In this document: one piece after another, positions 1,381 through 8,044 of the stretch | Layout of the letters: every line of letters begins with the position of its first letter | Position numbering within the stretch: position 1 is the first letter of the stretch | IMG/VR virus record: IMGVR_UViG_3300042319_001147 | Location: 1-22,408 of that record | From: a virus | Strand: one strand, 5' to 3' | Length of the DNA stretch: 22,408 bases | Program-made: the position numbers and the translations under genes | Notes under the pieces: model-generated | Seen by the model: the letters and a program-made list of their open reading frames with translations, nothing else | The model's database searches: none | What the model was told of the DNA's origin: nothing

Positions 1381-1413
1381 TTATATAAACAAAGTCATCT
1401 TTAGTTTATATAA
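1381..1413. promoter_or_regulatory. Perfect 10-bp inverted repeat between divergent genes
   Basis: TTATATAAAC (1381-1390) and GTTTATATAA (1404-1413) are exact inverted copies separated by 13 bp. They fill the 58-bp gap between the leftward sigma-like gene and the rightward gene at 1433. Each arm contains a TATA-type core, so the pair could be two mirrored promoter elements, one per gene, or an operator for a dimeric repressor. Confidence 0.5.
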
Positions 1414-1432
1414 CTAAAAAATAACAAAGAAT

Positions 1433-1786
1433 ATGAAACAAAAAAAGATTGAAAGAATCATTGTAGGTGTAGATGTAGTTATCACTTACTCAAATGGAGA
1501 AAAAGAAACAAAGATAATATCAGGCGCTACCTGGGTTGATGATATCTTCAACACACCGACATCAACACCTAAAAGAAAGATTCCAAACTATTCTTTCTTC
1601 TGTGAGGTAGAGGATGGTTTGATGTATATCAAAGGTGTAAATAAGGAGATGATGGTTGGTACCGTTGATGCTGCTAGGTGGCCTAAGGCTGAAAAGCAAT
1701 ATGCTATGTATCTACTTAAAAATGATAATGACTTGACAGAAGATGATAAGTCTGTTTTAAATAAAATCATACAGGGTATAATCTAA
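1433..1786 (+). CDS. Unknown 117-residue protein
   Basis: This is a single-gene unit with its own divergent promoter region and its own terminator. The N-terminal part (KIERIIVGVDVVITYSNGEK) reads as beta strands. The C-terminal part is helical and acidic (NDNDLTEDDKSVLNKIIQ). I see no conserved catalytic motif and cannot name a family. The start ATG follows an A-rich, SD-less leader (AATAACAAAGAAT), as for other genes here. It is likely an early or host-interaction gene because it is independently transcribed and lies outside the structural block, but this is inference. Confidence 0.75.
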   Translation: MKQKKIERIIVGVDVVITYSNGEKETKIISGATWVDDIFNTPTSTPKRKIPNYSFFCEVEDGLMYIKGVNKEMMVGTVDAARWPKAEKQYAMYLLKNDNDLTEDDKSVLNKIIQGII

Positions 1787-1804
1787 ACTGCTTTAGATTG
1801 AAAG

Positions 1805-1839
1805 AGAGTTGTAGGTATATTTGACTACAACTCTTTTTT
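1805..1839 (+). terminator. Intrinsic terminator after the 1433-1786 gene
   Basis: GAGTTGTAG (1806-1814) pairs perfectly with CTACAACTC (1825-1833) across a 10-nt loop. The stem is extended by A1805-T1834 and followed by a run of six T (1834-1839), a classic Rho-independent terminator. It separates the small gene from the structured region to the right. Confidence 0.85.
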
Positions 1840-1895
1840 GTGCTATAAAAAATCCTCATTTTCTAAACTTTTAAATATGGAAGTAATATATATGT

Positions 1896-1901
1896 TATAA
1901 T
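1896..1901 (+). promoter_or_regulatory. Possible -10 box for the structured RNA
   Basis: TATAAT lies within an AT-rich tract (ATATATATGTTATAATAGC), 58 bases before the first strong hairpin of the structured region and 57 bases after the terminator. No convincing -35 box is seen. Such boxes arise by chance in AT-rich DNA, so this is weak. Confidence 0.3.
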
Positions 1902-2138
1902 AGCATTTACGGTGATAAAAAGCATAAAAGATTTAGAATAATAAAAAGCATTTAGATTCATATCAGAGCGGGATAACTTACGCTGGCTGATATGTCTTAT
2001 TTCACTACCAGGGGATTATACAAAGTGAAACTATAGAATTAAAGTCAGAAGTAGAAAGTATAACAGGGAACCTTAAATCCTTGAAAGTTGCTGACCAATC
2101 ACATACAAAGGTGCTATGTGTGCGAGCCGATACTTATA

Positions 2139-2269: not shown

Positions 2270-2671
2270 TTAAATATAAAAGTTATTATTTGAGATGGTT
2301 CTTTCAAGACCGTCTTTATCATAGAAAGTAGGAAAAGATACATTAGTTATCTTTATACCCTTCTTTAAGCAGTGATTTATATACTTCTCCTCTTCTATAA
2401 ACCTTCTATATTCATGCTTACCCTTACCAACTATACATATATCATCATACCCAGATTGTATCTCCACAATTTGTATATCACAAATATTATTTTTACAACA
2501 ATATCTATACAGACTATTATCTACATATTCAAAGCTAACTTTATATGACTTTCTTAGGTTGCTATTATGATTAATAGATCTTTTCTCCATATCATATGTA
2601 GAACCTATATATATTATATCACCAAGATGATATATAGCATATACATAATATCTCTTATTTGCATATTCCAT
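2270..2671 (-). CDS. GIY-YIG endonuclease, free-standing
   Basis: The N-terminal ~100 residues fit the GIY-YIG nuclease fold. The first motif is YVYAIYHLG (9-17), the second IYIGST (20-25), followed by the catalytic Arg at about residue 31 (YDMEKR) and a Glu near 93-95 (FIEEEKYIN) in the metal-binding position. No DNA-recognition domain follows; the remaining ~30 residues are unassigned. Such solitary proteins in phages are usually homing endonucleases of the Seg type, which spread into related genomes. It is the last of three tightly packed leftward genes, 1 bp after the preceding stop, and lies directly beside the structured RNA region. Confidence 0.8.
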   Translation of the reverse strand: MEYANKRYYVYAIYHLGDIIYIGSTYDMEKRSINHNSNLRKSYKVSFEYVDNSLYRYCCKNNICDIQIVEIQSGYDDICIVGKGKHEYRRFIEEEKYINHCLKKGIKITNVSFPTFYDKDGLERTISNNNFYI

Positions 2672-2672
2672 A

Positions 2673-2924
2673 CTACTTACTATAAATCCAGTTCATAAAG
2701 CTTTCATCATCTAGTCTCTTAATCTCTTCTTTAAGAGCCTCATCAGCGATATTAAACCTAAGCTTACATACCAACCAATCGAGTTCAATCTGAGAAGGTC
2801 TATAGAGATACCTTTCATAACTATCATGTATGATGACTTCCTTCACCATATCACTCCAAATCATCTCCTGCTTATAAGAAGACATCATATGTTCTTCTAC
2901 TAGTTCCATTTTTGTTTTCATCAT
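2673..2924 (-). CDS. Unknown 83-residue protein
   Basis: A small helical, charged protein that I cannot assign. It directly abuts the upstream gene: its ATG (2924-2922) is adjacent to that gene's TAA. The N-terminus can start at any of three Met codons. The DNA ATGAAAACAAAAATG (2921-2907, minus strand) is identical to the beginning of the upstream gene, so the true start may be the last ATG with the A-rich tract as its leader. No signal peptide, membrane segment or metal site is visible. Confidence 0.65.
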   Translation of the reverse strand: MMKTKMELVEEHMMSSYKQEMIWSDMVKEVIIHDSYERYLYRPSQIELDWLVCKLRFNIADEALKEEIKRLDDESFMNWIYSK

Positions 2925-3221
2925 TTATATATCTCTAAAAAAGTCATCACTATCATCATAAAAGTCATCTTCATCTACCTCATCTAAAACAGAGTTTATA
3001 ATATTATCTCTTTTTATAGATTTAGCTATCGCTATCATACCTTCATAAGCACCTTTTGACTGGGTATGTAGTTCTTCTAAAGCAGATTTGACCTCACTAC
3101 AAAACTCAGTATCACTAATATCTGGTTTCTTTACTACTATATCATCTATAAAATCTGACATGACTTCATAGTCTTCTGGGAATAGACTACTCTTTAAGTA
3201 GTCTTTCATTTTTGTTTTCAT
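2925..3221 (-). CDS. Unknown 98-residue acidic protein
   Basis: The C-terminal third is very acidic (LDEVDEDDFYDDSDDFF). The rest is predicted helical, with no motif I recognise. It is the first gene of the leftward three-gene unit. Its start shares the exact 15-base ATGAAAACAAAAATG with the next gene. Acidic phage proteins of this size can be DNA mimics or inhibitors of host enzymes, but nothing here proves that. Confidence 0.65.
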   Translation of the reverse strand: MKTKMKDYLKSSLFPEDYEVMSDFIDDIVVKKPDISDTEFCSEVKSALEELHTQSKGAYEGMIAIAKSIKRDNIINSVLDEVDEDDFYDDSDDFFRDI

Positions 3222-3305
3222 ATTATGTGTTGTTTATTGTCTTACAAAGATAAGATATTTATTCCGAATAAAAAAACTTTTGGTGGTATAAAATATAAAA
3301 TAGTT

Positions 3306-3800
3306 ATGATAAACATATACAGGATACTATACAACAATAATATAATCTATGTTGGTAAGACCATACTTACTCTAAAAAAAAGAAAATCACTTCCTAACTA
3401 CTCAGTTCCTATTGAGATATACAAACAATCAACAATAGAACTCATTGAAGAAACCGAAGATGTCTCAAGAGAAAGGTATTGGATAACCTATTATAAAGAG
3501 AACGGACACCAACTAATGAATAAAAGAAACGGAGACCACAGCGATGAGACGAAAACCGATTATTATCTGAATAGACTATTAATATCCAAAACTAAAAAAA
3601 GTTTTGTAAAAATGACTGATGAGGAGAAAAAAGAAAAGAGAGCAAAATATAGAGAAGATAATAAAGAAAAGATAAAAAAGAAAAGAAAAGAAGATTACAA
3701 TACTGGTAGAATAAAATCTTGGAAGGGTAGTAAGGGTTATATGGACATGCTAAAAAGGAAAAAAGAAGAAAGAGGATTCATTAAAAAAGGAAAGTCATAA
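3306..3800 (+). CDS. GIY-YIG endonuclease with basic C-terminal tail
   Basis: Residues about 3-60 carry the GIY-YIG signature: NIYRILYNN, IIYVGKT, the Arg-rich TLKKRK, and the catalytic Glu in SRERYWI (about residue 56). The rest is strongly basic (EEKKEKRAKYREDNKEKIKKK, broken here by the limit) and probably binds DNA, as in NUMOD-type homing endonucleases. I chose Met at 3306 because the fold begins at once there and it follows TATAAAATATAAAATAG. The frame is open back to an ATG at 3225, which would add 27 unlikely residues and leave only 3 bp to the divergent gene at 3221. It ends before the terminase promoter region. Confidence 0.75.
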   Translation: MINIYRILYNNNIIYVGKTILTLKKRKSLPNYSVPIEIYKQSTIELIEETEDVSRERYWITYYKENGHQLMNKRNGDHSDETKTDYYLNRLLISKTKKSFVKMTDEEKKEKRAKYREDNKEKIKKKRKEDYNTGRIKSWKGSKGYMDMLKRKKEERGFIKKGKS

Positions 3801-3853
3801 ACTTTTTATCAAAAAAAAATATAACCTATACTACAAGTTTTTGTTATCATAAT

Positions 3854-3915
3854 AAAACACCTCACTCACACTCCATTATTCATCGCCGTCTATCAAGTGT
3901 GGGTTTGGTGTTTTT
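3854..3915 (+). terminator. Two-tier hairpin with T-run before terS
   Basis: AAAACACC (3854-3861) pairs with GGTGTTTT (3907-3914), and inside it CACACT (3867-3872) pairs with AGTGTG (3896-3901). A run of five T (3911-3915) ends the structure on the plus strand, so it can terminate transcription from the endonuclease gene. Because the outer stem starts with AAAA it could also act leftward. The large 23-nt loop is unusual for a terminator. Its place just before terS makes a packaging recognition site another possibility. Confidence 0.5.
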
Positions 3916-3945
3916 AGATGCTTATAAACAAAAGACTTCTAAAGT

Positions 3946-3957
3946 CATATAATATAG
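3946..3957 (+). promoter_or_regulatory. CATATAA promoter candidate upstream of terS
   Basis: CATATAATATAG, identical to the 12 bases at 21666-21677 upstream of the capsid gene, lies 22 bp before the terS start. A small inverted repeat GACTT/AAGTC (3934-3946) abuts it. It fits a -10-like element opening the packaging operon. Confidence 0.45.
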
Positions 3958-3979
3958 TAAAGTGTGGTAAACCCGTAAA

Positions 3980-4402
3980 ATGAATAAAAAATATGACAGA
4001 GAGTTCCTAGTGAACAAAGTAGCGATGATGAGAATCAAAGGTAAGTCTACTTATAATATAGTAGAGTTTCTAAAAGAAGATATCGGTATGGGTCAAACAA
4101 CAGCATATGAGATAATGAGAGATGCTCAAAAGTTATTTATAGATATACAAAAAGAAAAGATTGAAGGTGCGTTTGAAGAATCAGTATCTCAACTTGAAGA
4201 GTTATATGATAGTACATCTGATAAGAAGTTGAGACTAAGTATACTACAAGAAGTAAATAAACTAAAAGGCCTTTACGCAGCACAAAAGATTGAACACTCT
4301 GGTCAGGTTGGAATAACAGGTATAGATGTTCAGATTATAACCACTAAAGCAGACTTAGAAGAACCTAAAAAAGAAGAAGAAAAGAAAGATGAAACAAACT
4401 AA
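3980..4402 (+). CDS. terS: Terminase small subunit
   Basis: This 140-residue protein binds the packaging site on phage DNA and recruits the large subunit. The N-terminal ~45 residues form a likely helix-turn-helix (VAMMRIKGKSTYNIVEFL, then GMGQTTAYEIMRDAQ). A central helical oligomerisation region follows (SVSQLEELYDSTSDKKLRLSI), and then the typical small-terminase phrase KLKGLYAAQKIEHSGQ near residues 95-110. The C-terminus is acidic and lysine-rich. Position directly upstream of terL, separated only by a methyltransferase remnant, supports the call. The next reading frame starts at 4389, overlapping the end of this gene by 14 bp. Confidence 0.8.
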   Translation: MNKKYDREFLVNKVAMMRIKGKSTYNIVEFLKEDIGMGQTTAYEIMRDAQKLFIDIQKEKIEGAFEESVSQLEELYDSTSDKKLRLSILQEVNKLKGLYAAQKIEHSGQVGITGIDVQIITTKADLEEPKKEEEKKDETN

Positions 4403-4800
4403 GTTAATGCTCGGTGATAATATAGAATCACTAAAAAAACTACCAGATAATAGTGTAGATAGTATAGAATATGGGATTAGATGGATTTGAGAATAAGGAT
4501 TTTGAGGGTAGAGATAATTTAGCTAATGGAAACCAAGATGAACCTTTTAAAAAGAGACCAGGTTCTATGAAGAACCCTCACCCTACCGTAAAGCCAGTTG
4601 CTCTTATGGCTTACCTATGTAGATTAGTAACACCAACAAATGGAATTGTTTGCGACCCGTTTATGGGTTCTGGTTCAACTGGTATAGCAGCACAACTTGA
4701 AGGCTTTAGGTTCTGTGGTATGGAACTGGATAAGGATTACTTTAAGATTGCTGAAAGTAGAATAGAAAGTTTTGAAGAATATAGAAAGTTTATAAAATGA
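4389..4800 (+). pseudogene. DNA methyltransferase with catalytic middle deleted
   Basis: Two fragments of one N4/N6 DNA methyltransferase (PF01555-like, permuted motif order) lie in different frames. The first (4389-4490, 33 codons) begins MKQTKLMLGDNIESLKKL and PDNSVDSI, the segment that normally runs into TDPPY, then hits TGA. The second (4471-4800) holds the C-terminal part: GLDGFE, NPHPTVKP, the SAM-binding DPFMGSGSTG and FCGMELDKDYF. The DPPY catalytic motif and target-recognition region are missing, so methylation activity is lost. The join lies near 4465-4470, where the frame also changes. The C-terminal ORF overlaps terL by 4 bp (ATGA), so it may persist for translational coupling. 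Confidence 0.8.
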
Positions 4801-6005
4801 GACTAAAGATTAAAGCATCAAGAGTTCTTAATGAGATGTTAGCAACTGATAAAAGATTCATACTTTCAATCGGTGGTTCAAGGTCTACTAAGACTTACTC
4901 TGCTTTACAATATCTTCTGATATACTGCTTAAAGAATCAAAACAAAACTATCACAATAGCTCGTAAAACCTTTCCTTCATTAAGACTTGGTGCGATGAGA
5001 GAGTTCCTACAGATGCTAAAAGACTATGAGATATACAAAGAAGAAGACCATAATAAAACAAATAACTTCTACTCACTAAACCTAAACACTATCCAGTTTA
5101 TATCTATAGACCAATCTATAAAGCTGAGAGGTCTTAAACATGATATAGTTTTTATAGATGAGATAAATGAGATAAGTAAAGAAGAAGCTGACCAGCTTTT
5201 TATGAGAACAACTGAAAGAGTTATTATGTGTCAAAATCCTTCTGACGCTCTTCACTGGTCTCTAAAGTATAAGAGTAGTCCTGATTGTTTATACATACAC
5301 TCAACTTATAAAGATAATATATTCTTAGAACAATCTATCATCAATCAGATAGAGAGTTATAAAACTACTGATGAAGACCAGTGGAATGTATATGGTCTTG
5401 GTTTACCAGCTAAGAACAATGAACTTGTTTATACTAACTATGAGTTCTGGTCTGACTATGATGACCTTTATGAGGTAGATTCAGAAGGTAAGAAACATCC
5501 AAAGTTTGAAGAGATAGTTCTCGGCGCTGACTGGGGTTGGAATCACCCATCAGCTATTGTAAAGTTATGGATAGATACAAATCATCAAAGAGTATGGGTT
5601 GAAGAACTTATACACGAGAGCTACCTTACTACTGATGACCTTATTAAGAAGATGATTGATATAAACATAGATAAAGAACTAAGAATATTTGGTGATTCAG
5701 CAGAACCTAAAACTATTGAGAGTATAAGAAGAGCGGGATTTGATATAACTGATTCTATGAAAGAAGTAAAAGCAGGTATAGATTGTGTGAAGTCTTACAA
5801 GTTATTCATACACTCATCATCAGTAAAGATTCAAGAAGAGTTGAGAAGATATAAGTGGAAGATGAAAGGTGAGATTAAAACAGATGAACCTATCAAGTTA
5901 TTTGATGATGGTTTATGTGCTCTAAGATACGCTCTTTATACTTACACACAAAAAACAAAGAGGTCAAAGGATTATGACTTTGACTTTGAGTATATAGACT
6001 TATGA
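4797..6005 (+). CDS. terL: Terminase large subunit
   Basis: The packaging motor ATPase and nuclease. Walker A is at residues 26-33 (GGSRSTKT, with T replacing the usual G before K), Walker B at 117-122 (IVFIDE), and a coupling-like segment at RVIMCQNPSD (141-150). The C-terminal nuclease shows its acidic residues in LGADWGWNHP (D245), FGDSAEP (D300) and LFDDGLCALRYA (D370/D371). At 402 residues it is full length for the compact Terminase_3/PBSX-like type. The start overlaps the methyltransferase remnant by 4 bp. The stop lies inside a 17-bp repeat that also occurs at 7232, where a foreign cassette seems to begin. The usual next gene, portal, is absent. Confidence 0.93.
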   Translation: MRLKIKASRVLNEMLATDKRFILSIGGSRSTKTYSALQYLLIYCLKNQNKTITIARKTFPSLRLGAMREFLQMLKDYEIYKEEDHNKTNNFYSLNLNTIQFISIDQSIKLRGLKHDIVFIDEINEISKEEADQLFMRTTERVIMCQNPSDALHWSLKYKSSPDCLYIHSTYKDNIFLEQSIINQIESYKTTDEDQWNVYGLGLPAKNNELVYTNYEFWSDYDDLYEVDSEGKKHPKFEEIVLGADWGWNHPSAIVKLWIDTNHQRVWVEELIHESYLTTDDLIKKMIDINIDKELRIFGDSAEPKTIESIRRAGFDITDSMKEVKAGIDCVKSYKLFIHSSSVKIQEELRRYKWKMKGEIKTDEPIKLFDDGLCALRYALYTYTQKTKRSKDYDFDFEYIDL

Positions 6006-6017
6006 TAAAAAAGAAAA
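6001..6017 (+). repeat. 17-bp direct repeat, left end of DruA-like cassette
   Basis: TATGATAAAAAAGAAAA occurs here, across the terL stop codon, and identically at 7232-7248, at the start of the GIY-YIG gene. In both places an ATGATAAAAAAG reading frame begins (MIKKK); here it reaches a stop after 13 codons. This looks like the original next-gene start, split from its body by the insertion. Confidence 0.75.
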
Positions 6018-6024
6018 CAAAAAG

Positions 6025-7158
6025 ATGGGTAAAGAGATACTAAAAATGAGCAAGGATGAGACGATATATCTACTGGATATGTTATATAACTTTTATAAGC
6101 CACTAGACACACTACAGAAGTACTACATGAAAAGAAAGTATGAAAGGTTGGAAAAAATAAACTTTGATGACTATAAAGATAGAATATTTGATGATAATAA
6201 TATCGACCCATCTACAATGGATATCGAGATTAGAGATATAGATGAGAGTATATTTAATAGTATAGTTCAATCTATAACATCTATATCAATCGAGAGTCAG
6301 ATTGGTAGGAGACTAAACCTTGTTGTTGTTGATAGAACTACAGATAGGTATATTGGATTTATCAGACTAGCATCACCTGTGTCTAGTATACTTGGTCGTA
6401 ACCTTTTACTGAATAACAAAAAGACACCTATGACTAAGATAAACAAGCATATTTACTCAGGATCGATTATAGTTCCAGTACAACCATTTGGTTATAATTG
6501 TCTAGGTGGTAAGTTATTAGCGCTTATATGTGTATCAAATCAAGCTAAGGATATGTTCAATAAAAAGTATGGTAGTGATATATGTATGTTTGAGACTACA
6601 TCATTATACGCTGATATAAAGTCTTCAAGTCAGTATGATGGATTGGAACCATATATTAAAAGAAACGGTAAGACAAATACTGATATGTTACTATTCCCAA
6701 ATGATGATGTCTACATACCTTTTAGGAACCTGTTGAGAAAGTACTATGCTCAAGATAGGTTTGGTGGGTCAATCGCTAATAACACATCGGGTCCAAAAAA
6801 GCATGAGTATACAAAAGGAGTCAGGATACTTGAGATGCATGTAAAGGAGATCTGTACAGATATGGTCTACAAGATGGAAGAGCTAAAGTCAATGATGAAG
6901 ATAAAGTCAAGAAAAAATTACTACTACTCTACACTAGGTAACGATAACAGCTTTAGTTATATCTCAAGTGATGGATATATGGTACTAAATAACAACAATA
7001 AGGAAAAGTTTGATATAAGTAAAATGATAGAGTGGTGGAAGGTTAAGTCATCGAGTAGATATAATAAACTAAAATCAAAAAATATACTAAAAAGCGAGCT
7101 AGAGTTTTATACACGTAAAGGTATCAACTCTGGATTGAACTTTGATATGATAAGATAA
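6025..7158 (+). CDS. DruA-like (DUF4338) protein
   Basis: The central part resembles the DUF4338/DruA family (PF14236), named for the Druantia defence protein and also found in phages. Family-like segments in order: IGRRLNLVVVDRTTDRYIG (about 96-114), FIRLASPVSSILGRN, SGSIIVPVQPFGYNCLGGKL, KYGSDICMFETTS and SSQYDGLEPYIKRNGKT. The family's biochemical activity is not something I can state; a DNA-processing role is often suspected. Residues about 245-377 are basic and lysine-rich and may bind nucleic acid. The gene sits alone between terL and a homing endonuclease, is followed after 2 bp by a 70-nt cloverleaf, and the whole unit is bracketed by 17-bp repeats, so it is probably mobile DNA. An alternative start is Met8. 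Assignment is from remembered family patterns only. Confidence 0.65.
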   Translation: MGKEILKMSKDETIYLLDMLYNFYKPLDTLQKYYMKRKYERLEKINFDDYKDRIFDDNNIDPSTMDIEIRDIDESIFNSIVQSITSISIESQIGRRLNLVVVDRTTDRYIGFIRLASPVSSILGRNLLLNNKKTPMTKINKHIYSGSIIVPVQPFGYNCLGGKLLALICVSNQAKDMFNKKYGSDICMFETTSLYADIKSSSQYDGLEPYIKRNGKTNTDMLLFPNDDVYIPFRNLLRKYYAQDRFGGSIANNTSGPKKHEYTKGVRILEMHVKEICTDMVYKMEELKSMMKIKSRKNYYYSTLGNDNSFSYISSDGYMVLNNNNKEKFDISKMIEWWKVKSSSRYNKLKSKNILKSELEFYTRKGINSGLNFDMIR

Positions 7159-7160
7159 TA

Positions 7161-7230
7161 AGCGGGGGTAGCATATAGTAATGCTATCAACATCCAGTTG
7201 ATAGAAGGTTTGTCGTAAAACCCCACCGCT
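7161..7230 (+). ncRNA. Cloverleaf-like structured RNA after the DruA-like gene
   Basis: Closing stem AGCGG (7161-7165) pairs with CCGCT (7226-7230), extended by GGGT (7166-7169) with ACCC (7220-7223). Inside are AGCAT/ATGCT (7170-7174, 7181-7185), ATCAAC/GTTGAT (7186-7191, 7197-7202) and, as an alternative to the extension, GGTTT/AAACC (7207-7211, 7218-7222). The four-arm outline and length are tRNA-like. It is probably not a working tRNA: the second loop lacks U33, the first lacks GG, the last lacks TTC, and no CCA follows. It ends 2 bp before the next start codon, so it could control that gene, be a guide-like or processed RNA of the cassette, or be a decayed tRNA. Confidence 0.6.
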
Positions 7231-7231
7231 C

Positions 7232-7248
7232 TATGATAAAAAAGAAAA
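7232..7248 (+). repeat. 17-bp direct repeat, right end of DruA-like cassette
   Basis: Exact second copy of TATGATAAAAAAGAAAA, overlapping the first codons of the GIY-YIG gene and lying 1 bp after the cloverleaf. Excision between the two copies would place this gene's ATG in an ATGA overlap with the terL stop, the normal spacing style in this genome. Confidence 0.75.
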
Positions 7249-7556
7249 AGAGTACATACTTTGTTTATAATATCATACATAATGGTAAGGTAGTTTATGT
7301 TGGTAGAACTACAAATATTAAAACAAGACAAGCTAGACATAACTTAGATTATAAGAAAGGTATAAAGAAAACTCTTTATGACTTCTTAAGATTAGAGGGT
7401 GTTGAGGTGATTAAACTAAATCCGATTATAGAGTATAAAGAAAAGATACACTCTAAAAGATTTGAGATGTATCTACTTCTTATCAACTACTTTGAAAATG
7501 ATATGAAGCTTACCTTAAAACAAAGGATACCGAACATTTCCGATTTAGCAAGATAA
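7233..7556 (+). CDS. GIY-YIG endonuclease, free-standing
   Basis: Compact 107-residue nuclease. Motifs are YFVYNIIHNG (9-18), VVYVGRT (20-26), the catalytic Arg at about 32 (NIKTRQARH) and the metal-binding Glu at about 78 (KRFEMYLLLIN). No separate DNA-recognition domain is present. It is the third GIY-YIG gene in the window, with only family-level similarity to the others. Its first 16 bases are part of the 17-bp repeat that also lies at the end of terL, implying it was formerly next to terL. A terL-adjacent site is typical for homing genes, since terL is conserved among relatives. Confidence 0.82.
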   Translation: MIKKKKSTYFVYNIIHNGKVVYVGRTTNIKTRQARHNLDYKKGIKKTLYDFLRLEGVEVIKLNPIIEYKEKIHSKRFEMYLLLINYFENDMKLTLKQRIPNISDLAR

Positions 7557-7567
7557 GGATAAAGAAT

Positions 7568-8044
7568 ATGAAAGAATTTAAATATATAAAAGGGTATGAG
7601 GGTCTATACCAAATAAACATAGATGGTGTGGTCAGAAGAGTACACAAAGACCATAGATCACAACCATATAAGATATTAAAAATATCTATAAGAAATGGTT
7701 ACTACTTCTATACTCTATCTGGTAAAAAATATAACCTACACAGGCTGTTGATGATAAACTATACTAATAATCCAGATAATCTTCCTTGTGTCAATCATAT
7801 AGATGGTAACAGGCTAAACAATGATATCAGTAATCTAGAGTGGTGTACCTATAAACACAACACCAGACATGCTTATAAGATCGGTAACATGATACCCAAG
7901 GATAGAGCAATAACTGATAAACAGATAAAAGATATAATAAATATGAGGGCAACCGGCACTAAACCAGGTGTGATATCAAAGATGTATGGTGTGAGTTATA
8001 CTACCATATATAGAGTCTGTAAAGGTATAAGAGCATATAAATAG
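7568..8044 (+). CDS. NUMOD4-HNH homing endonuclease
   Basis: Residues 1-40 form a NUMOD4 motif (FKYIKGYEGLYQINIDGVVR). An HNH domain follows: LHRLLM with H58, the central CVNHIDGNRLNND (N76, H77), and ISNLEWCTYKHN with the terminal Asn (about 89-98). The C-terminal ~45 residues (TDKQIKDIINMRATG, then VISKMYGVSYTTIYRVCKG) form a helix-turn-helix that would recognise the target. Domain order and 158-residue length match phage homing endonucleases of this class. An SD-like AAGGATAAAG lies upstream, unusual for this genome and a hint of foreign origin. It is 11 bp after the GIY-YIG gene. Confidence 0.88.
   Translation: MKEFKYIKGYEGLYQINIDGVVRRVHKDHRSQPYKILKISIRNGYYFYTLSGKKYNLHRLLMINYTNNPDNLPCVNHIDGNRLNNDISNLEWCTYKHNTRHAYKIGNMIPKDRAITDKQIKDIINMRATGTKPGVISKMYGVSYTTIYRVCKGIRAYK

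Follow-up and report, generated by a model that had tools for sequence, protein, structure and literature searches.

Several described systems resemble parts of the locus reported here. DruA of the type I Druantia defence system belongs to Pfam family PF14236 (DUF4338), which has been named a GNAT domain (PMC10853773), and DruA-like folds have already been noted in Synechococcus phages with Phold (PMC12774648). The Mom family (PF25680) comprises phage Mu Mom and other DNA adenine acyltransferases; glycyl-CoA or a similar compound is the predicted acyl donor of Mom (PMC7824862). In Staphylococcus aureus, tRNA-Gly species with altered G18-G19 and T arm avoid elongation factor Tu (EF-Tu) and supply glycine to FemXAB (PMC4052509). 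The present analysis concerns positions 1 to 22,408 of the IMG/VR virus record IMGVR_UViG_3300042319_001147 (22,408 nucleotides in all, hereafter the window), in which a DruA-like gene is followed immediately by a structured RNA that, judged from its sequence, is a divergent tRNA-Gly(UCC). Such a protein and a glycine tRNA are kept together in many unrelated phages, which suggests an undescribed enzyme using glycine on its own tRNA. No description of this pairing was found in the literature searched, outside which most subscription journals lie.

The window protein belongs to the DruA/DUF4338 family, as indicated by a PF14236 match of 57.5 bits against a cut-off of 27 (E-value 1.6e-15), an end-to-end alignment with PHROG_19197 (E 8e-69) and a PADLOC match to DruA (E 5e-10). 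Unlike druA of type I Druantia, however, the gene is phage-borne and linked to a tRNA-Gly, and neither druB-druE nor a large helicase lies beside it: the open reading frames (ORFs) of the window comprise phage head and tail genes and endonuclease genes only. A PADLOC scan of six window proteins named DruA, a homing endonuclease, methylases and one weak mad1 match, and nothing else.

An earlier note on this DNA, made from the sequence alone, had described a structured RNA downstream of the DruA-like gene. Folding analysis agrees with it, the RNA being more stable than shuffled sequences (z -2.98, and -2.78 for the exact element). The RNA begins 3 nt past the DruA stop and reaches the GIY-YIG start codon, the A of which serves as its final base. 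Divided by hand (7-2-4-6-4-1-5-7-5-4-5-6-5-7-1), it has the layout of a tRNA with the anticodon UCC, in which the acceptor stem pairs 7162-7168 with 7223-7229, the anticodon loop CATCCAG occupies 7191-7197 and the equivalent of U73 lies at 7230. A covariance model of 14 phage tRNA-Gly(UCC) genes (R1, window left out) matches the element at 42.7 bits (E 3.3e-10), with every stem kept except one base pair, while the next-best place in the window scores 10.5 bits. A second model, built from non-canonical DruA-linked tRNA-Gly genes of other phages (R2, window again left out), gives a higher score of 48.8 bits (E 4.4e-11); both E-values are rough because the calibration was short. When 360 distinct phage tRNAs were compared with the window RNA, 24 of the 25 best-scoring were glycine tRNAs, although this comparison leans towards Gly because part of the Gly set was fetched by a GCGGG-type pattern. 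The plain alignment score to tRNA-Gly is unexceptional against all other stretches of the record, and it is therefore the covariance models that carry the assignment. On this evidence, the RNA is a divergent tRNA-Gly(UCC) by its sequence pattern (GCGGG...CCGC-U73, with a UCC anticodon). Direct DNA and pattern searches with it returned nothing relevant because its conservation sits in the tRNA pattern and not in exact letters.

The features of a canonical, translation-competent tRNA (TTC T loop, GG D loop, U33, CCA, and a call by ARAGORN or Rfam) are absent from the window RNA. Its two loops read ATAGTA and GTCGTA, the latter being the T loop, and the D loop has A18-G19; A replaces the universal U33, and the 3' end is CTA in place of CCA. 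All four stems nevertheless still pair, with one acceptor mismatch, and the acceptor bases G1-C72, C2-G71 and U73 are kept. Other identities were considered and set aside: a group I intron, a riboswitch or another Rfam RNA, for which there was no Rfam match, and a ribosomal bypass or recoding element, for which there was no supporting anatomy. With lowered thresholds, the only ARAGORN call at the window was an unrelated antisense candidate.

The deviations of this copy raise the question of whether an ordinary phage tRNA supplement simply drifted next to DruA and persists in the window as a decaying pseudo-tRNA or as a 5' structure controlling GIY-YIG translation. Its CTA tail, A33, acceptor mismatch and short T loop would fit decay, and tRNA-Gly is carried by many phages. 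Moreover, hairpins in the RNA ahead of phage homing endonuclease genes are translational repressors (PMC2988022), and the window RNA touches the GIY-YIG start codon. The locus does resemble free-standing phage homing endonucleases and their regulatory hairpins in having been gained beside core genes and in placing an RNA structure just upstream of a GIY-YIG gene; it differs in the homology of the RNA to tRNAs and in the partner with which this RNA recurs, which is DruA and not the GIY-YIG gene. No relatives of the 107-aa GIY-YIG protein were found, which leaves nothing by which to link the RNA to the GIY-YIG gene. Since base pairing persists in all four stems, other DruA-linked tRNAs show these loop changes too and the adjacency is met again in unrelated phages, we regard mere drift as improbable.

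The principal evidence for an association of protein and tRNA comes from other phages. The first DruA-adjacent tRNA was a tRNA-Gly(UCC) located 20 nt behind DruA in locus L114, the only one in an ARAGORN scan of about 120 DruA-bearing and terL loci. Among 80 loci carrying close relatives of the L114 DruA gene (the PHROG_19197 family), a tRNA-Gly lies within 1.5 kb of DruA in 45, invariably on the DruA strand (45/45) and within 100 nt in 29. It is found 10-14 nt upstream in 10 loci, 6-75 nt downstream in 19 and 370-625 nt downstream in 14, most of the last group sitting behind a conserved YunG-like gene; two tRNAs are further off. Several of the 80 contigs are near-copies, and the tRNA is present in 22 of 43 representatives. 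Only one tRNA of another isotype, Arg, was called in the 80 loci (L331). Mapping the four arrangement states onto the DruA tree requires 18 changes or more; a single accident passed on by descent therefore does not account for the linkage. The window DruA groups with L041, L042 and L044 in a deep, separate clade, on a long end branch whose exact place is unsure. In L376, a 142-kb T4-like contig filed under a Sphingobacteriales metagenome-assembled genome, a non-canonical tRNA-Gly lies 47 nt behind DruA; the gp19-like and gp23 genes on either side are on the minus strand, and the pair are the sole plus-strand genes between them. Nothing supports the idea of a cassette of one protein and one RNA more clearly than this isolated pair. 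Together, these data show a linkage of DruA-like genes and tRNA-Gly that recurs across T4-like and Bacteroidota-type phages, and in our opinion the linkage is very probably functional.

Two features of gene content accompany the pair in some loci. The YunG-like gene (about 170 aa; PHROG_12251, unknown function) directly follows DruA in L282 (4185-4706), L296 (4122-4634) and 35 further DruA loci, with no occurrence in loci without DruA, and is a possible third component. In L114, a second, diverged DruA paralogue (2621-3997, from 2705) stands behind the tRNA-Gly, giving the order DruA - tRNA-Gly - DruA.

A linkage of this kind could also reflect mobility and not chemistry, if tRNA-Gly genes were landing or recombination sites at which DruA-like genes accumulate as cargo, much as homing endonuclease genes do. 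The arrangement around the tRNA turns over fast, and in L282 (4754 and 6097) and L284 (1198 and 3354) two near-identical tRNA-Gly(UCC) genes enclose other genes shortly after DruA, a layout that would fit genes inserted together with a tRNA copy. Homing endonucleases adjoin phage tRNAs and core genes (PMC2988022, PMC10448857), and GIY-YIG and HNH genes directly follow the pair in the window. An explanation by landing sites alone is nevertheless unlikely: the strand is always the same, the isotype is Gly only despite the many isotypes in phages, and the tRNA occurs both upstream and downstream of DruA. Moreover, selection for a recombination site would not change the D and T loops while keeping the stems intact, and tRNAs altered in this way were found by BLAST only in DruA-positive isolates.

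These tRNAs form a non-canonical class. Many DruA-linked tRNAs have A18 for G18 and G55 for the usual T55 (D loop A18-G19; T loop TGC... or GGC...), together with intact stems, UCC or ACC anticodons, U73 and CCA. In the covariation alignment A5, which was fitted to the covariance model, compensatory changes are seen in 20 of 21 pairs, and 95.1% of cells are paired compared with 43-52% in slid controls. When two such tRNAs were used as BLAST queries, the only matches among 50,697 phage records were in the Pelagibacter phages HTVC008M and Mosig EXVC030M, both of which carry DruA-like genes 6-8 kb from the tRNA. Members of the class are missed by standard tRNA finders, and such pairs may therefore be common and overlooked. 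Even shorter tRNA-Gly-like RNAs of 69-71 nt (GCGGGGTAGTTTAA...CCCCGCTCCA) follow DruA and the YunG-like gene in four loci (Table 1) and are likewise missed by ARAGORN.

A described counterpart of a dedicated tRNA-Gly is that of the staphylococcal FemXAB proteins. The likeness lies in a transferase that uses glycine from a dedicated tRNA-Gly species with altered loops, the transfer being proposed in the present case; FemXAB differ in acting in a bacterial cell-wall pathway and in belonging to another protein family. Compared with the non-proteinogenic tRNA-Gly of S. aureus, the window RNA has G18 changed and G19 kept, and its T stem (GGTTT/AAACC) has G49-C65 and U51-A63, so that the EF-Tu-weakening pairs A49-U65 and A51-U63 are absent.

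The structure predicted for the window DruA-like protein by AlphaFold (mean predicted local distance difference test score 89.8) is of the GNAT type: its best matches in the PDB are GNATs (probability 0.9-0.99, E 6e-3 or weaker, about 165 residues). Mom (E 2.4e-3; template modelling (TM) score 0.59 by target and 0.36 by query) is among the nearest of the named viral structural matches, which also include Mom-like nuclease fusions. Mom and the window protein would thus share a GNAT-type fold, known here from the predicted structure, whereas by sequence the protein stands outside the Mom family, with no Pfam match to PF25680. Mom genes also occur near the pair or its parts. In L041, a Mom gene lies 0.7 kb from DruA, and in L236 a Mom gene (1431-2129, minus strand; PF25680, E 2.8e-50) overlaps an antisense tRNA-Gly (1406-1478, plus strand) whose anticodon loop, CATCCAG with A33, is that of the window RNA; L275 shows the same. 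No tRNA partner for Mom is described in the literature searched.

The same fold admits another role, that of a GNAT acting on the tRNA itself, in which a TacT-like acylation of glycyl-tRNA would be toxic or regulatory and the phage tRNA-Gly would serve as a resistant substitute or decoy. TacT and TmcA are among the PDB matches, TacT recognises U73 and G71 of tRNA-Gly (PMC9976931), both of which the window RNA keeps, and the altered tRNA loops could give resistance. However, dozens of other GNATs match at least as well as TacT, toxins of this kind are less than half as large as the protein, and the named viral matches favour Mom. A role of this type is, in our view, improbable.

The role that we consider likeliest for the DruA-like protein is instead that of a glycyl-tRNA-dependent acyltransferase, perhaps a DNA-base modifier, served by a dedicated tRNA; the chances of this proposal appear to us evenly balanced. 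The host glycyl-tRNA synthetase would charge the phage tRNA with glycine, as we infer because its acceptor positions are kept. The altered elbow would make the tRNA a poor substrate for EF-Tu and the ribosome, which would reserve the glycyl group for the DruA-like GNAT enzyme, and this enzyme would then move the glycyl group from the tRNA onto an acceptor. The DruA gene and the tRNA would be co-transcribed in one direction and would move together. The linkage points to glycyl-tRNA as the donor, an assignment that we would neither favour nor disfavour. The likeliest acceptor would be a phage DNA base, by analogy with Mom and its predicted glycyl donor, in which case the mark would protect or label phage DNA; this is a tentative guess, and the acceptor may also be a protein or a small molecule. 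It is possible, though again somewhat doubtful, that a whole class of phage enzymes works in this way, with DruA-like GNATs taking glycine from ribosome-avoiding tRNA-Gly to modify phage DNA bases, possibly with Mom-like chemistry, and passing between phages as a two-gene unit.

Several observations weigh against the proposed acyltransferase. The fold match to Mom is partial, as the TM score by query indicates, and there is no Pfam Mom call; the overlap of Mom and tRNA-Gly is a single antisense case in two near-identical contigs. The tRNA in the window may be decaying, since CCA, U33 and a portion of its T loop are gone and one acceptor pair is mismatched. The earlier note had expected a conserved 70-nt element directly downstream of DruA; this holds in the wider family once the RNA is read as tRNA-Gly, but the closest DruA proteins, from the Bacteroidota-type phages L041-L046, have no tRNA nearby. 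Most of the first approximately 130 DruA loci, and the cyanophages, likewise have no adjacent tRNA. Among 13 cyanophage records examined, ten carry an ordinary tRNA-Gly elsewhere and three gave none; the co-occurrence with DruA in cyanophages is confounded by kinship and is therefore suggestive and not counted as proof. Finally, the enzyme activity, the modified base and the acceptor are all inferred.

A functional pairing would provide DruA/DUF4338, a widespread domain whose activity is unknown, with a testable substrate, glycyl-tRNA. The pairing would also hint at the donor used by Mom-like enzymes, which is an open question. It would be the first case in a phage, as far as we know, in which a dedicated tRNA works for an enzyme and not for the ribosome.

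The simplest reading in the earlier note was that the DruA-like gene and the RNA form a mobile unit, a single protein with a single RNA, which entered beside terL; on this model the insertion came with a 17-bp target duplication. The layout it described is accurate: TATGATAAAAAAGAAAA occurs exactly at both edges (Table 1) and nowhere else in the record, with only the DruA-like gene and the structured RNA between the copies. A 13-codon mini-ORF (6002-6043) begins within the left copy. Excision would leave a 4-bp ATGA overlap, the usual spacing in this operon, and relatives without the unit exist. The repeat itself, however, is A-rich and constitutes weak evidence, near chance level. An exact 17-mer repeat arises anywhere in 15-21% of Markov sequences of the same make-up, though within 1.5 kb in only 1.5-3%, and the window contains a second, coincidental one (4216/20132). 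Chance similarity of two Lys-rich gene starts, which the note had named as the main alternative, is accordingly possible but not certain; unrelated gene starts rarely share at least 16 bases, and a chance origin is thus neither excluded nor required. There is no transposase or integrase, and the right copy overlaps the 3' end of the RNA itself.

In all 20 terL relatives with downstream sequence, DruA is absent after terL; in L020, whose terL is 79% identical, a different GIY-YIG gene stands where the window has DruA. It follows that the unit was probably gained in the window lineage, between terL and the homing-endonuclease gene, or else was lost in all the others. Relatives that lack the cassette, for which the note had called, are therefore available, but no empty site with a single repeat copy was found among them. 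With this and the near-chance level of the repeat, insertion by target duplication is not supported and appears unlikely. What stands is the unit of protein and RNA, in view of the identity of the RNA as a tRNA-Gly, the wide recurrence of the pairing and the isolated pair in L376. In the related Bacteroidota-type phages L021 (6187-6260) and L039 (5817-5890), a tRNA-Met lies on the opposite strand directly after terL, and the post-terL spot thus seems to collect extra genes.

Table 1. Coordinates of the DruA/tRNA-Gly unit and its neighbours in the window, and of short tRNA-Gly-like RNAs in other loci
Feature	Position	Strand	Details	Basis
DruA-like gene (DUF4338, PF14236)	6046..7158	+	370 aa from ATG 6046; alternative ATG 6025 gives 377 aa	Pfam, PHROG
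Divergent tRNA-Gly(UCC)-like RNA	7162..7233	+		Covariance models, layout, isotype comparison
Left copy of 17-bp direct repeat	6001..6017	+	Spans terL stop	
Right copy of 17-bp direct repeat	7232..7248	+	Covers 3' end of tRNA-like RNA and GIY-YIG start	
GIY-YIG endonuclease gene	7233..7556	+	107 aa	PF01541, E 5.9e-8
HNH/NUMOD4 homing-type endonuclease gene	7568..8044	+	Next in operon	Context
terL	4797..6005	+	Upstream of unit	PF04466, E 1e-18; context
Short tRNA-Gly-like RNA, L294	4668-4736			
Short tRNA-Gly-like RNA, L312	4665-4733			
Short tRNA-Gly-like RNA, L338	4525-4595			
Short tRNA-Gly-like RNA, L373	3598-3666			

Two further regions of the window deserve mention. Ahead of terL (4391-4800), a DNA methylase gene lacks most of its middle when set against the homologue in L020, which is intact at 436 aa; what is left is a short 5' piece (MKQTKLMLGDNIESLKKLPDNSVDSI...) joined to a remnant of the C-terminal domain. 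The same methylase gene is interrupted in frame in L019 (1693-3558), where the other frame of the interrupting stretch (ORF 2193-2780) encodes an HNH-like protein; a comparable hidden HNH insertion in a phage methylase has been described (PMC11855218). The apparently non-coding region 1950-2270 contains a long, near-perfect hairpin (2154-2231), possibly a regulatory RNA or an origin, which is bracketed by exact 16-nt direct repeats, CGCGAGAAAGAAAAGC, at 2139 and 2230.

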